64,000 nucleotides of DNA, taken from NCBI RefSeq assembly GCF_001306035.1, contig NZ_LGCM01000065.1:1-64000 (forward strand), given 5' to 3'. Both the position numbers and the translations under genes were made by a program. Shown here piece after piece: positions 731 through 50,086 of the stretch. The notes beneath the pieces were generated by a model. It saw nothing but the letters and a program-made list of their open reading frames with translations. It did not search any database and was not told the origin of the DNA. Origin of the DNA: Levilinea saccharolytica. Lineage in GTDB: Bacteria; Chloroflexota; Anaerolineae; Anaerolineales; Anaerolineaceae. Position 1 is the stretch's first letter. Each line of letters begins with the position of its first letter.

Positions 731-805
731 GGGCCCGTAGCTCAACGGCAGAGCAGGCGGCTCATAACCGCTTGGTTGATGGTTCGAACCCATCCGGGCC
801 CACCA
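731..805 (+). tRNA. tRNA-Met (anticodon CAU)
   Basis: A full cloverleaf can be drawn. The acceptor stem GGGCCCG (731-737) pairs with CGGGCCC (795-801). The D-arm is GCTC/GAGC, the anticodon loop CTCATAA carries CAT, and the T-arm GATGG/CCATC has loop TTCGAAC. The discriminator is A and CCA is encoded (803-805). A CAT anticodon could also belong to tRNA-Ile2 (lysidine-modified) or initiator tRNA; the paired first acceptor base argues against initiator. The 3' end of this gene is repeated five more times immediately downstream. Confidence 0.9.
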
Positions 806-1152
806 AAAATTCAAATAGGATTGGTTGTGTGGCCCCATCGAGGGGTGGTATTCGAACCCATCCGGGCCCACCAAAAATTCAAATAGGATTGGTTGTGTGG
901 CCCCATCGAGGGGTGGTATTCGAACCCATCCGGGCCCACCAAAAATTCAAATAGGATTGGTTGTGTGGCCCCATCGAGGGGTGGTATTCGAACCCATCCG
1001 GGCCCACCAAAAATTCAAATAGGATTGGTTGTGTGGCCCCATCGAGGGGTGGTATTCGAACCCATCCGGGCCCACCAAAAATTCAAATAGGATTGGTTGT
1101 GTGGCCCCATCGAGGGGTGGTATTCGAACCCATCCGGGCCCACCAAAAATTC
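783..1152 (+). repeat. Tandem 68-bp array built from the tRNA-Met 3' end
   Basis: Starting inside the T-loop of the tRNA, a 68-base unit repeats at 783, 851, 919, 987 and 1055, with a final partial copy at 1123-1152. Every unit contains the tRNA T-loop, the T-stem 3' strand, the acceptor 3' strand and CCA (TTCGAACCCATCC then GGGCCCACCA). This is followed by an A/T-rich spacer and a small hairpin, CCCC-ATCGA-GGGG. All full units are identical as far as I can read. In the downstream copies the 5' half of the tRNA is missing and the T-loop is two bases longer (TATTCGAAC). The array has no protein-coding character. Confidence 0.95.
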
Positions 1153-1189
1153 CATCCATTGATGTCACATTCAAGAACAAAATATGCCG

Positions 1190-1530
1190 GTGTAGGGGCA
1201 CGGCTGCGGCGTTGCGGCCTTTGGCTTGAAACGGTGCTGCCGTGCCCAATTTGCCGTGGGTACGGCCTGGGGGATGGGCACGGCGAGGCCGTGGCGGATG
1301 GTGATTTTGGGTGATACCGCCGTGCCCCTACGGGGGCGTGACGGGGTTGGGGTACGGCCGGGGGGGATGGGCACGGCGAGGCCGTGGCGGATGGTGATTT
1401 TGGGTGATACCGCCGTGCCCCTACGGGGGCGTGCCGGGGGTGGGACACGGCCGGGGGGATGGGCACGGCGAGGCCGTGGCGGATGGTGATTTTGGGTGAA
1501 ACCGCCGTGCCCCTACGGGTGCGTGGCCGG
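1190..1530 (+). repeat. GC-rich minisatellite, about 92-bp period
   Basis: The block GATGGGCACGGCGAGGCCGT begins at 1273, 1366 and 1458, a period of 93 then 92 bases. Between blocks runs a conserved stretch ending in CCGTGCCCCTACGGG. A diverged copy of the GGGGCACGGC motif lies at 1195. About 2.8 copies are present and they fill the gap between the tRNA array and the permease gene. I see no gene here. The GTAGGGGCACGGC-type core resembles dispersed repeats elsewhere in the window (41.5 and 48.1 kb). Confidence 0.85.
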
Positions 1531-1535
1531 GGCCG

Positions 1536-1544
1536 TGCTACAAT
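1536..1544 (+). promoter_or_regulatory. Extended -10 element of the permease gene
   Basis: TGCTACAAT fits TGnTAnAAT and lies 39 bases before the permease start codon, directly after the minisatellite. No clear -35 box is visible. Confidence 0.45.
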
Positions 1545-1583
1545 GGAACCATCCTACGACCCCGACTTGGAGACCCCTGCCCA

Positions 1584-3137
1584 ATGAATGGTATCTCGCT
1601 CGTCCTGGCCCTGCTTCCCCTGGTGTTCATTTTTCTCTTGTTGGTCCTGCGCCGCACCGCTGCGGATGTGGCGGGGCTGGCCGGTTGGCTGCTGGCCCTG
1701 GTGATTGTGATTTTCTGGTTTCAAACCCCGCCAGGGGTGGCCTTGCAGGCCAGTTTGGGCGGGGTGGTGGCCTCTTTTCCCATCAGCCTGATGGTGCTGA
1801 CCTCCATTCTGCAAATCACCCTCATGCTGGAAACGGGCGCCATCCAGCGCGTGGTGGTGCTGATGAAGGCGGTCGCGCCAGGCAATCAGGTGGTGCAGAT
1901 CATGATCATCAACCTGGGCTTTGGCACGCTGCTGGCGGCCATGGGGGCCACGCCGGTTTCGATCCTGCCGCCCATCATGCTGGCGATGGGCTATTCCTCC
2001 TTCGTGGCCATCGCCCTGCCCGCCATCGGCTACGATGCCCTGTGCACCTACGCCTTGCTGGGTATCCCCGTGGTGGTCTTCTCCACCTTTGTGCAGATGC
2101 CGGTGAACGAAGTCGGCATCTACTTTGCGCGCTTTATGCCGGTGATCAGCTCCTGCATCGCGCTGGGCATGCTTTACATCGTAGGCGGTTGGAAAATGAT
2201 CTGGAAGGGTCTGCTGCCGGCCTTAATCGCGGGGGTGACGGCGGGCCTGACTGCTTTGGTGATGAACGCCGCCCGCATGATCCCGCTGACCGGCGTGGCC
2301 GCGGGGTTGGCGGTGATTTTGGTGGAACTGGCCTATTTGAAACTGCGCGGAGAACGCCTGTACGACCGCAGCGTGCTGACCGAACAGGACCTCATCAACG
2401 AGCGGAGTATGCCTTTGTGGCGGGCGCTCTTCCCCTGGATTCTGCTGACCTTCTTTTCCGTGCTGATCAACGCGCCCTTCCTGCCGTTTTATAACTGGCT
2501 GTTTGTGCAGCAGGCCATGCCGCTGGAGATCATCCCCAATGAACCGGAGAAGATCCGCTTGTGGTGGCAGGCGTATTTCTGGATTTTGGTCAGTACGCTG
2601 CTGGCCCTGCCGGTTTTAAAGCCAGGGGGCGGCGTGCTGCGCCGGACGGTGGCAAAATGGCTGAAGCGCGCCCCGCGCCCAATGGCAGCCGCGGCGGTGT
2701 TCTTTGCGCTGGCTTATTTGATCAACCATTCCGGCAAGGGGCTGGATTGGACCCTGGCAGACCCGGCCCGCAACATGGTCAACGTCATCGCGGGAGCTTC
2801 GGCGGCGGGATTTGGCCGCCTGTACCCGCTCATCGCTCCCTTCCTGGGCTTGCTGGGCGGTTTTGTCAGCGGGTCTGAGGCTTCTTCCATCGCCATGCTG
2901 ACGCGTCTGCACCTCTCCACCGCCCAGCAGGTGGGCCTGGCGGGGGTGGTTATCGCCGCGGCCAGCGGCATTGGCGGGGGACTGGCTTCGGTGATCTCCC
3001 CGGCCAAGCTGCAAAACGCGGCGGCCAGCATTGACCGCATCGGCGAAGAAGGCCAGGTGCTGCGCGTGACCTTTGTGATTGCTGTGGTGATCACGGCGGT
3101 GTGCGCCCTGCTTTCGCTGGTGTGGGCGTACGGTTAG
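1584..3137 (+). CDS. L-lactate permease (LctP) family transporter
   Basis: A 517-residue polytopic membrane protein with roughly 12-14 hydrophobic segments. It resembles the LctP family of lactate/glycolate proton symporters. The C-terminal signature SGSEASSIAMLTRLH (near residue 430), followed by a Gly-rich helix and SVISPAKLQNAAA, matches the conserved LctP region in which SG(S/D)xSSNAL and a later ISPQ motif occur. The family imports L-lactate and related 2-hydroxy acids. The window also encodes a lactate dehydrogenase 19 kb away, so lactate uptake or export would make metabolic sense. The gene stands alone and faces the convergent N-acyltransferase gene. Substrate is inferred from family only. 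Confidence 0.75.
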   Translation: MNGISLVLALLPLVFIFLLLVLRRTAADVAGLAGWLLALVIVIFWFQTPPGVALQASLGGVVASFPISLMVLTSILQITLMLETGAIQRVVVLMKAVAPGNQVVQIMIINLGFGTLLAAMGATPVSILPPIMLAMGYSSFVAIALPAIGYDALCTYALLGIPVVVFSTFVQMPVNEVGIYFARFMPVISSCIALGMLYIVGGWKMIWKGLLPALIAGVTAGLTALVMNAARMIPLTGVAAGLAVILVELAYLKLRGERLYDRSVLTEQDLINERSMPLWRALFPWILLTFFSVLINAPFLPFYNWLFVQQAMPLEIIPNEPEKIRLWWQAYFWILVSTLLALPVLKPGGGVLRRTVAKWLKRAPRPMAAAAVFFALAYLINHSGKGLDWTLADPARNMVNVIAGASAAGFGRLYPLIAPFLGLLGGFVSGSEASSIAMLTRLHLSTAQQVGLAGVVIAAASGIGGGLASVISPAKLQNAAASIDRIGEEGQVLRVTFVIAVVITAVCALLSLVWAYG

Positions 3138-34669: not shown

Positions 34670-34690
34670 GAGGCAGTTTCGTGTAAAAAA

Positions 34691-34975
34691 AGCGATGATG
34701 GAAACGAGTAAGCCCACAGCAGGCTGACAGCGAACCCGGGAAAGGTGTGAGCCGGGGCGGCGCGCGGGGCTGAAAATCCTTCCGGAGCTGCGACCTGAAC
34801 CCCCCTTGGCCGGGTCAGTAGGGAAGCCGGGTTCGCCCCCCGTTAGCCGCGGCGCTGGTGTTCACCGCCTTTGGGCGCGCGCACCGGGCAAAGGTGCTGG
34901 CAGCTTGCCTGCCAGAATCAGGGTGGTACCGCGGATTGTCTTCCGTCCCTGTGTGGGATGGAAGTTTTTATTTTA
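34691..34975 (+). promoter_or_regulatory. T-box riboswitch (isoleucine specifier)
   Basis: Conserved leader parts occur in order. The stem I start is AGCGATGATGGAAACGAGTA (34691-34710), the distal-loop region is GGTGTGAGCCGG, and the specifier region TGAAAATCCTTCCGGAG (34771-34787) carries ATC at 34776-34778, an Ile codon. The T-box sequence AGGGTGGTACCGCGG lies at 34920-34934. A terminator, CTTCCGTCCC/GGGATGGAAG plus TTTTTATTTT, occupies 34940-34975. T-boxes bind uncharged tRNA and switch to an antiterminator. The specifier matches the downstream isoleucyl-tRNA synthetase gene. Confidence 0.92.
34940..34975 (+). terminator. Regulated terminator of the T-box leader
   Basis: CTTCCGTCCC (34940-34949) pairs with GGGATGGAAG (34955-34964), loop TGTGT... 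of five bases, then TTTTTATTTT. Its 5' arm directly follows the T-box sequence, as expected for mutually exclusive antiterminator pairing. Confidence 0.9.
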
Positions 34976-41439: not shown

Positions 41440-41720
41440 TCGGCGTGCAGATTGCTTCGTCCTCAAAGTACGAGGGCACGCCGCTGCGCGGCTCGCAATG
41501 ACATGCGCGGGCGAGGGCCGTCCGCTGTGTTGGATGAAGCGGGGAGCCCATGTACGGGCACGGGCGCGGTTTGCCCGTGCCCCCGTGCTGAGGCGGCGTG
41601 CCCTCCAAGTGCGAGGGTACACCCTCAAAGTACGAGGGTACACCCCCGTGCTGAGGGGGCGTGCCCTCCAAGCCCGAGGGTACACCCTCCAAGTGCGAGG
41701 GCGTGCCCCTACCTTACGAT
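41440..41720. repeat. Field of short palindromic repeats (CCCTC-N-GAGGG type)
   Basis: Five related hairpin units follow each other: CCTCAAAGTACGAGGG (41461), CCCTCCAAGTGCGAGGG (41608), CCCTCAAAGTACGAGGG (41624), CCCTCCAAGCCCGAGGG (41665) and CCCTCCAAGTGCGAGGG (41685). They are joined by GCGTGCCC, GTACACC or CCCGTGCTGAGG pieces. The first is embedded in an element with AGATTGCTTCG and CTCGCAATGACA inverted ends. Related single copies are at 43637 and 48143. No gene is credible in this stretch (41255-41829). Confidence 0.8.
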
Positions 41721-49963: not shown

Positions 49964-49978
49964 GGCATTAACAACTGA

Positions 49979-50070
49979 ACACGGGGAGCCTGGTAGCCCA
50001 GGCTGAGAGGAAGGCGCCAGCCTTCGACCCAATGTACCTGATCCGGGTAATGCCGGCGGAGGGAAAGGAT
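49979..50070 (+). promoter_or_regulatory. TPP riboswitch (THI element)
   Basis: The conserved aptamer parts are ACGGGGAGCC (49981), GGCTGAGAGG (50001-50010), CCTTCGACCC, ACCTGATCCGGGTAATGCCG and GCGGAGGGA (50056-50064). They form the thiamine pyrophosphate three-way junction. TPP binding represses downstream expression. The downstream hairpin holds the ribosome binding site of thiN, giving both termination and translation control. Confidence 0.95.
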
Positions 50071-50086
50071 CCTGTCAACTTGTGCA

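Follow-up and report, generated by a model that had tools for sequence, protein, structure and literature searches.

The DNA directly behind a tRNA gene with anticodon CAT in Levilinea saccharolytica repeats the 3' end of that gene five times, each time with a small hairpin set into it. We suggest that this array is a stack of displaced gene ends left by small cassettes that entered the gene, built up either by re-entry or by slippage or unequal exchange, and we put the probability of this reading at about 0.48, close to an even chance. The observations behind it are the regular anatomy of the tagged ends, a hairpin whose stem covaries, the presence of such ends behind many tRNA genes and the RNase P RNA gene (rnpB), two loci where tagged and plain versions of a gene can be compared, and the way in which trailers are distributed among the copies.

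In the window (the whole 64,000-nucleotide stretch of DNA analysed), TRF reports a tandem repeat at 783-1152 with a period of 68, 5.4 copies and 100% matches (score 740). The 23-nt tRNA end TTCGAACCCATCCGGGCCCACCA, which has a mean of 0.00 occurrences in 100 shuffled sequences, begins at 783, 851, 919, 987, 1055 and 1123; the unit that starts at 783 is the tRNA's own end, so that there are five extra copies, a number taken from one draft assembly of 65 contigs. An earlier note on this DNA had spoken of five identical 68-bp units. Number and identity stand, the five copies being 100% identical, but the note overlooked that each also carries TTGGTTG and a hairpin. Read from 806, the unit consists of AAAATTCAAATAGGA, TTGGTTG, TGTGG, CCCC-ATCGA-GGGG, TGGTA and TTCGAACCCATCCGGGCCCACCA, where TTGGTTG is the variable loop of the tRNA and TGTGG an altered 5' strand of its T-stem; a large share of each unit is non-tRNA sequence. 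The features are as follows.

731-805, + strand: tRNA gene with anticodon CAT, T-loop from 783 (ARAGORN calls it Met; Rfam gives 731-802)
806-820, + strand: tRNA trailer/linker, repeated after copies 1-4
821-832, + strand: copy 1, left arm (variable loop TTGGTTG and altered T-stem 5' strand)
833-845, + strand: copy 1, hairpin CCCC-ATCGA-GGGG
846-850, + strand: copy 1, linker TGGTA
851-873, + strand: copy 1, tRNA 3' end from T-loop to CCA
889-941, + strand: copy 2 (left arm 889-900, hairpin 901-913, linker 914-918, 3' end 919-941)
957-1009, + strand: copy 3 (left arm 957-968, hairpin 969-981, linker 982-986, 3' end 987-1009)
1025-1077, + strand: copy 4 (left arm 1025-1036, hairpin 1037-1049, linker 1050-1054, 3' end 1055-1077)
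1093-1145, + strand: copy 5, the last (left arm 1093-1104, hairpin 1105-1117, linker 1118-1122, 3' end 1123-1145)
1146-1152, + strand: end of the repeat; the trailer past 1152 is unlike that of the inner copies

Every copy thus contains the hairpin insert CCCCATCGAGGGG (833-845 in the first), and hairpin plus TGGTA are inserted exactly at tRNA position 53/54. Only 15 bp, with no integrase gene, separate the tRNA from the first left arm. The 68-bp unit occurs at six places in the genome, all of them in this array.

ARAGORN and the earlier note made the host gene a tRNA-Met, but it is probably tRNA-Ile2. Three of the 44 tRNA genes of the genome have anticodon CAT; judged by what we take to be the relevant identity features, the one in the window (AGGCGGCTCATAACCGCTTGG) looks like tRNA-Ile2, while the remaining two are presumably an initiator and an elongator tRNA-Met. 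The encoded CCA that the note had stressed is present in the window copies but incidental, being found in 16/69 array-bearing tRNAs and 31/143 copies of the catalogue described below; none is encoded in the locus of a same-genus relative (L008).

The array does not stand alone in its genome. Searching for the 20-nt tRNA end with up to five mismatches within 800 nt downstream (721-800 nt covered) flagged ten of the 44 genes, two of which were removed because the matches were neighbouring tRNA genes, leaving tagged 3'-end copies behind eight: Ile2 (5), Ser-GCT (6), Cys (1), Glu-CTC (at least 3), Pro-CGG (3), Asp (2 and one decayed), Glu-TTC (5 hairpins in 700 nt) and Gln-CTG (7 hairpins in 700 nt). 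The loop is ATCGA or ATTGA in five of the eight arrays, each time on a different stem (CCCC/GGGG, CACC/GGTG, TCTC/GAGA, TCCC/GGGA and CGCC/GGCG); other loops (AAAA) occur at Ser-GCT and some further arrays. Across the 30,800 nt behind the 44 tRNAs we count 19 hairpins with an ATCGA loop, whereas 59 permuted loops average 0.10 and reach 2 at most; note that one of the 19 was counted twice where two search stretches overlap and that all lie in five arrays and are hence non-independent. One ATTGA hairpin lies on the opposite strand, behind Lys-CTT. By eye, insertion is at 53/54 in Ile2 and Ser, and in Cys, Pro and Gln it falls within the T-loop or at its end. In Glu-TTC it lies on the anticodon loop's 3' edge, near 38/39, and the copies have an intact T-arm.

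The hairpin itself usually has an AUYGA loop on a stem that varies yet covaries. Among 50 distinct 17-nt hairpins with a 5-nt loop, a set partly preselected for pairing by its loop list and Watson-Crick closing pair, 89.2% of the cells of the 5-pair stem pair and 24 cells show double-sided changes, against 8.3 in shuffles. The covariation score of 0.309 compares with 0.135 after shuffling, is reached by none of 500 shuffles, and falls to 0.113 or less when the alignment is slid. The pair formed by columns 3 and 15 fails on the sense strand in 17/50 hairpins, mostly as C-A by eye, which reads T-G on the other strand, and the next pair outward is mostly G-T, so that the data single out no strand as the folding one. 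That the stem varies with compensation while the loop stays mostly constant suggests a site that is recognised by its fold, and would fit single-stranded DNA or RNA as a target better than a duplex operator. Two other identities for the insert were tried and rejected. An archaeal-type tRNA intron, with known sites of which some of the insertion positions presumably coincide, shows no bulge-helix-bulge by eye, and the same type of insert also occurs in rnpB ends; a T-box-like bulge, suggested by the likeness of TGGTA, fails in relatives, which have TGATA and TGCTA.

How widespread are such ends? A DNA query with the core matched 20/147 genomes of the family, and the 22-nt core pattern with up to two mismatches matched 24/147, three of which (G040, G149, G162) are single two-mismatch matches with no same-strand tRNA in the locus; the reversed pattern matched nowhere in the 147. 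Across 84,980 species the exact core pattern occurs in 28 stretches, two isolates included, all titled Chloroflexi/Chloroflexota, Anaerolinea, Anaerolineaceae, Anaerolineae, Anaerolineales, Bellilinea or Longilinea. A 28-position covariance model (R1) hits 80/400 genomes of the order at E 0.01, where about 4 would nominally be expected by chance, E-values being rough. Nearly all of these belong to families f1 and f12, with two weak matches in f5. At E 0.001, 8/400 genomes of the phylum have a match, and every one of them belongs to f1 or f12, families of the window's order. Both counts are lower bounds, since filters lose weak matches and R1 misses variants present in the window's own genome.

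To describe the copies themselves we assembled a catalogue with a script that searched up to 1,500 nt past each tRNA in the collected loci. Eleven of 80 candidate arrays were dropped, four because they were judged spurious (L021, L022, L028, L239) and seven because they were Ser-TGA genes with matches belonging to a neighbouring Ser-GCT. This leaves 69 arrays with 144 copies (127 distinct), spanning 16 anticodons and 8 ARAGORN types; the loci were mostly picked via the core and are thus a non-random sample. The insert measures 18 nt in 67/127 distinct copies, 20 nt in 23 and 19 nt in 15. A perfect 18-nt right arm is present in 62/127, and the left arm resembles the local tRNA at seven or more of ten positions in 111/127 (taking the best of 12 shifts, which favours likeness). 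Left-arm mismatch peaks at T-stem positions 50-52 (0.32-0.38, compared to 0.08-0.24 at 44-49 and 0.09 at 53), while the T-stem 3' positions 61-65 mismatch at 0.01-0.12. A left arm changed at 50-52 beside a right arm that stays tRNA-like is what we would expect if, at a crossover, only the right-hand side had to restore the gene. Position 52 has 26 changes, of which 24 turn G into C and lengthen the hairpin. Within arrays copies are generally nearly identical.

A few catalogued or dropped loci look odd in their own right. L175:1-560 has Gly-like tRNA-end copies, in several of which the T-stem 3' strand is interrupted by a second insert, CCTGCGGGGGAGGCTGCGCACT. The dropped L021 holds a pseudo-tRNA just downstream of a CAT tRNA, made of D-arm pieces and a long GC-rich insert and unlike the other copies. 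In the Arg array seen in L115, L191 and L217, the last tagged copy lies 229 bp past the previous one, behind unrelated sequence, and adjoins a gene that is surE-like (named by eye).

The targets extend beyond tRNAs. One locus, L085, lies directly behind an RNase P RNA gene (RF00010, 262 bits), and 6/30 genomes with a core match have tagged 3'-end copies there (G103, G030 with five copies, G106 with two, G226, G330 and G425); four of the 30 yielded no 3' motif, and the count excludes one partial match. The hairpin follows the conserved ACAGAA, with CAGAA after GC in G103 and ACATTCA in G425. Right arms behind rnpB are often diverged, which we count against entry of a cassette.

Is there any trace of the event that produced a tagged end? 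Genus g51, with 57 genomes, allows plain and tagged versions of one locus to be set side by side. Behind tRNA-Ser(GGA) a 3'-end copy is present in 13/30 loci (four loci have less than 120 nt downstream). In two plain loci (L269, L277) the tRNA leads directly into TGATGGACAAACTTACGTAT; in a tagged one (L276) it is followed by another trailer with a terminator-like hairpin, a left arm, the hairpin, the tRNA 3' end and then TGATGGACAAACTTACGTATCGC, so that the native trailer, TGATGGACAAACTT, is carried by the tagged copy. The tRNA-Arg(GCG)-surE locus, matched in 50/57 genomes and read in 30, behaves in the same manner: tagged copies are present by eye in 10/30 loci, and L233 has a truncated hairpin; a recount script recovered 8/10, and the two that it missed (L232, L234) are in the catalogue as L125 and L113. 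When the plain L224 is compared to the tagged L220, the tagged copy is seen to be followed by the native terminator-like hairpin, and the tRNA by a new one. Two further loci (L229, L231) keep both terminator-like hairpins and have no copy. At these two loci a cassette of 60-110 bp thus appears, from the order of the parts, to have entered the gene, although the plain sites could also be precise deletions of an older array.

The trailers tell a similar story on a larger scale. In the 64 of 69 arrays that are usable, the trailer is shared with the tRNA in 58/71 inner copies, in 7/28 last copies and in 9/36 single-copy arrays. If plain tandem duplication had been the sole cause, we would have expected every trailer to resemble that of the tRNA, save where the array edge had diverged later; since likeness is mostly confined to inner copies, duplication is insufficient on its own, even if the 7/28 multi-copy arrays whose last trailer matches that of the tRNA are as duplication would have them. 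Insertion of a cassette with its own trailer would predict the pattern observed. The slippage-grown satellite proposed in the earlier note accordingly survives as a contributor and not as the whole explanation: units are so homogeneous inside arrays that local amplification must matter, and slippage or unequal exchange probably takes part as well.

The model that we favour can be put as follows. A cassette of 60-110 bp would consist of a replacement tRNA 3' end, a trailer (often with a terminator-like hairpin), a tRNA-derived left arm, the hairpin and a short linker. Its point of entry would be a loop in the RNA that the gene encodes, usually the T-loop at 53/54; because the cassette brings a new 3' end and trailer, the tRNA would stay intact, while the native 3' end would be pushed downstream, marked by the hairpin in the manner of an attR site. 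Repeated entry, or later slippage or unequal exchange between repeats of about 20 nt, would yield a tandem array; deletion between the same repeats would restore a plain gene. A site-specific recombinase acting in trans may read the folded hairpin, cassettes may still be mobile, and the direction of change at each locus is presumably insertion and not loss. To judge by their sequences, tagged ends do seem to behave like attR sites: the side from T-loop to gene end is kept, the left side drifts, the junction has a constant feature, and a new trailer follows. Integration scars were the best supported of the three ideas in the earlier note, with displaced 3' ends cut at integrase crossover loops and comparisons at two loci that fit insertion; a conserved hairpin, homogeneous units and the lack of visible cargo qualify that support. 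A duplex circle of 60-110 bp would be hard to form, and this counts against cassette entry.

What might move such a cassette? Large serine recombinases (PF07508) are found in 16/26 genomes with a core match and 6/26 without (Fisher p 0.011), a comparison confounded by relatedness and weakened by the fact that genomes without a core match may still have arrays, as core searches miss variants. None of seven regions of 5-20 kb each around PF07508 genes contains an ATYGA hairpin, and neither their distribution nor their surroundings tie a recombinase to the arrays. Copies follow one another at 53-229 bp in 75 intervals, with no integrase gene between tRNA and catalogued fragments and no cargo-bearing element with a hairpin end in the catalogued loci; the script reached 1,500 nt past the tRNA, and larger elements would escape it. 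Tyrosine integrase genes do adjoin tRNA types that bear arrays: in L188 (Anaerolinea thermolimosa; 793-1737, minus strand; PF00589, 4.8e-30) just upstream of a tRNA end that begins at the anticodon loop and is followed by two tagged copies, and in L219 (388-1443, minus strand; 2.7e-37) after tRNA-Arg. IMG/VR yielded one matching contig, L135, of which 1,094 of 39,094 bases were seen and which joins other DNA to a tRNA-Val-like end that tagged copies follow. The AUUGA-type pattern matched 0 IMG/VR contigs, and one 49-nt query had no match in 50,697 phage records. Since no tagged hairpin is seen at the readable junctions of these three elements, they are probably not the source of the tags. A lead towards Y1 transposases (PF01797 matches leading to frames of about 480-620 aa) was dropped, no HUH motif being visible by eye. 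The frames in question, in the Anaerolineales loci L249-L256, have a C-terminal IS200-like Y1_Tnp domain in both of the eight that were scanned and are perhaps domesticated.

The failure to find an enzyme, in the PF07508 distribution and in the seven surrounding regions, also fits a scenario without active mobility. Imagine that an ancestor acquired one tagged end per gene and that everything since has been slippage, unequal crossing-over and the growth and loss of satellites. Units as homogeneous as those in the window would follow, as would the 7/28 matching last trailers and the differences in copy number between close relatives that the earlier note had proposed to look for (five copies in G000 against one in G001, at one tRNA of the same genus). 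However, we would not expect neutral debris to keep its pairing by compensatory changes across two families, nor insertion points to differ between tRNAs of one genome, and we consider an old founder insertion alone unlikely, if well worth keeping in mind.

Conserved structure might instead reflect a role in RNA, with hairpin-bearing ends acting in read-through transcripts in termination, as decoys, or by keeping the tRNA 5' half from pairing wrongly with a 3' half further downstream. Many units do contain a terminator-like hairpin and T-run by eye, the G to C changes at T-stem 52 extend the hairpin, and the 430-nt RNA of tRNA plus array folds better than shuffles (z -3.62), though perfect repeats alone may cause this. 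Yet a lone 68-nt unit shows no folding advantage over shuffles (z -0.04), copies often lie beyond the terminator-like hairpin of the tRNA, the hairpin type also occurs in rnpB ends, and the core was detected in only 80/400 genomes of the order, a lower bound because variants escape the search. An RNA-level module consequently strikes us as quite improbable. The more specific idea in the earlier note, an RNA that recruits tRNase Z or the CCA enzyme, fares poorly: the copies lack the 5' acceptor strand, their T-arm is broken by the hairpin and by T-stem changes, the full T-stem is kept in the first copies of only 18/52 arrays (compared to every array-bearing tRNA), CCA is exceptional, and many catalogued copies stand behind a terminator-like hairpin by eye.

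Two further explanations fall further still. Retrocopies, in which a pre-tRNA 3' fragment with its trailer was joined to a hairpin, reverse-transcribed and inserted behind the gene, would account for RNA genes (tRNA, RNase P RNA) as targets and for unit right ends that, by eye, often coincide with the T-run of a terminator-like hairpin. They predict a native trailer on the tRNA and the same one on the copy; the two loci show the opposite, unless the plain sites are derived, and so does the trailer count, which makes this route very improbable. An assembly artefact, conceivable for perfect repeats in a draft genome, has a negligible chance given that the architecture recurs in many separate assemblies, including the isolates Anaerolinea thermolimosa IMO-1 and Bellilinea caldifistulae GOMI-1, and that different genes show different array sequences.

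Literature searches of one library listed no description of hairpin-tagged tRNA 3'-end arrays, and the earlier note, which knew of no standard element like this, was nearly right. There is a close precedent, however. Reasoning by analogy, we take it to be the ssrA islands of Dehalococcoides with their serine recombinase module DsiB (McMurdie 2011, PMC3146451): tandem 20-bp ssrA ends go with insertion within the T-loop, a constant 15-bp motif with no alignment to ssrA precedes each repeat, all repeats are found within 100 kb, and 15/31 islands have no integration module. Same phylum, tandem displaced ends of an RNA gene, a constant motif upstream and T-loop insertion are thus common to both, except that the motif in the arrays described here is a hairpin. 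Where the islands have cargo and one target (tmRNA), the arrays combine 60-110-bp units and no visible cargo with a covarying hairpin and a range of targets, many tRNAs and rnpB, entered at the anticodon loop too. Islander-type islands (PMC4383910) likewise regenerate the gene and leave a displaced 3' fragment in direct orientation behind it; that source names three crossover subsites for islands in tRNA genes, two of which, the anticodon and T loops, correspond to the insertions seen here at 53/54, at other places in the T-loop and on the anticodon loop's 3' edge (the last two by eye). Unlike in those islands, no integrase gene lies between gene and catalogued fragments, and a hairpin interrupts the fragment.

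Other repeats resemble the arrays in part. The rtT repeats of E. coli tyrT (RF00391) are also tandem, stand behind a tRNA gene and each contain a tRNA 3' end, but their 178-bp unit is longer and belongs to one gene; RF00391 had no match at the gathering threshold in the window or the 20 loci scanned. Integron cassettes are small units with a folded single-strand site (attC) that keeps its structure while its sequence varies, arranged in tandem arrays. Small tandem units and structure over sequence are shared, whereas here no R-box is seen by eye, units are too short for genes, and RNA genes are the targets. Small dispersed repeats of Nostoc, which show compensatory changes, and REP/REPIN palindromes are very small hairpin elements scattered over genomes; unlike REP/REPIN, all five ATYGA-loop hairpins (at least four Watson-Crick pairs) in the 64-kb window lie inside the array and 0/5 outside. 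Nor are there the constant repeats and differing spacers of a CRISPR, the whole 68-bp unit being identical.

It is tempting to go beyond the window and propose that Anaerolineales have a new class of micro-cassettes, 60-110 bp long, which become integrated into RNA genes, at the T or anticodon loop of tRNAs and at ACAGAA of RNase P RNA. With target homology and the fold of an AUYGA hairpin, whatever its stem sequence, as guides, they would replace gene end and trailer and be moved in trans by a recombinase, in an integron-like system where gene ends take the place of genes. We regard this wider proposal as doubtful. If true, one type of hairpin would admit tiny, cargo-free units to many essential RNA genes without harm, a logic unlike that of integrases each specific to one tRNA. 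The units would be among the smallest integrative ones known and a natural record of insertion into tRNA genes, and one would have to ask what enzyme recognises a fold whose loop is constant and whose stem is free. There is also a point for annotation, in that partial tRNA ends serve to call genomic islands and tagged copies could mislead.

Finally, the window contains some unrelated features. Three GC-rich direct repeats of about 93 bp (94% matches) occupy 1258-1532, between the array and a lactate-permease-like gene (1584-3137, PF02652), and by eye the same-genus locus L008 has similar sequence downstream of its tRNA. Imperfect tandem repeats of 21, 42 and 63 bp lie at 41580-41708, and a T-box leader (34686-34953) and a TPP riboswitch (49972-50082) both score above the Rfam gathering threshold.
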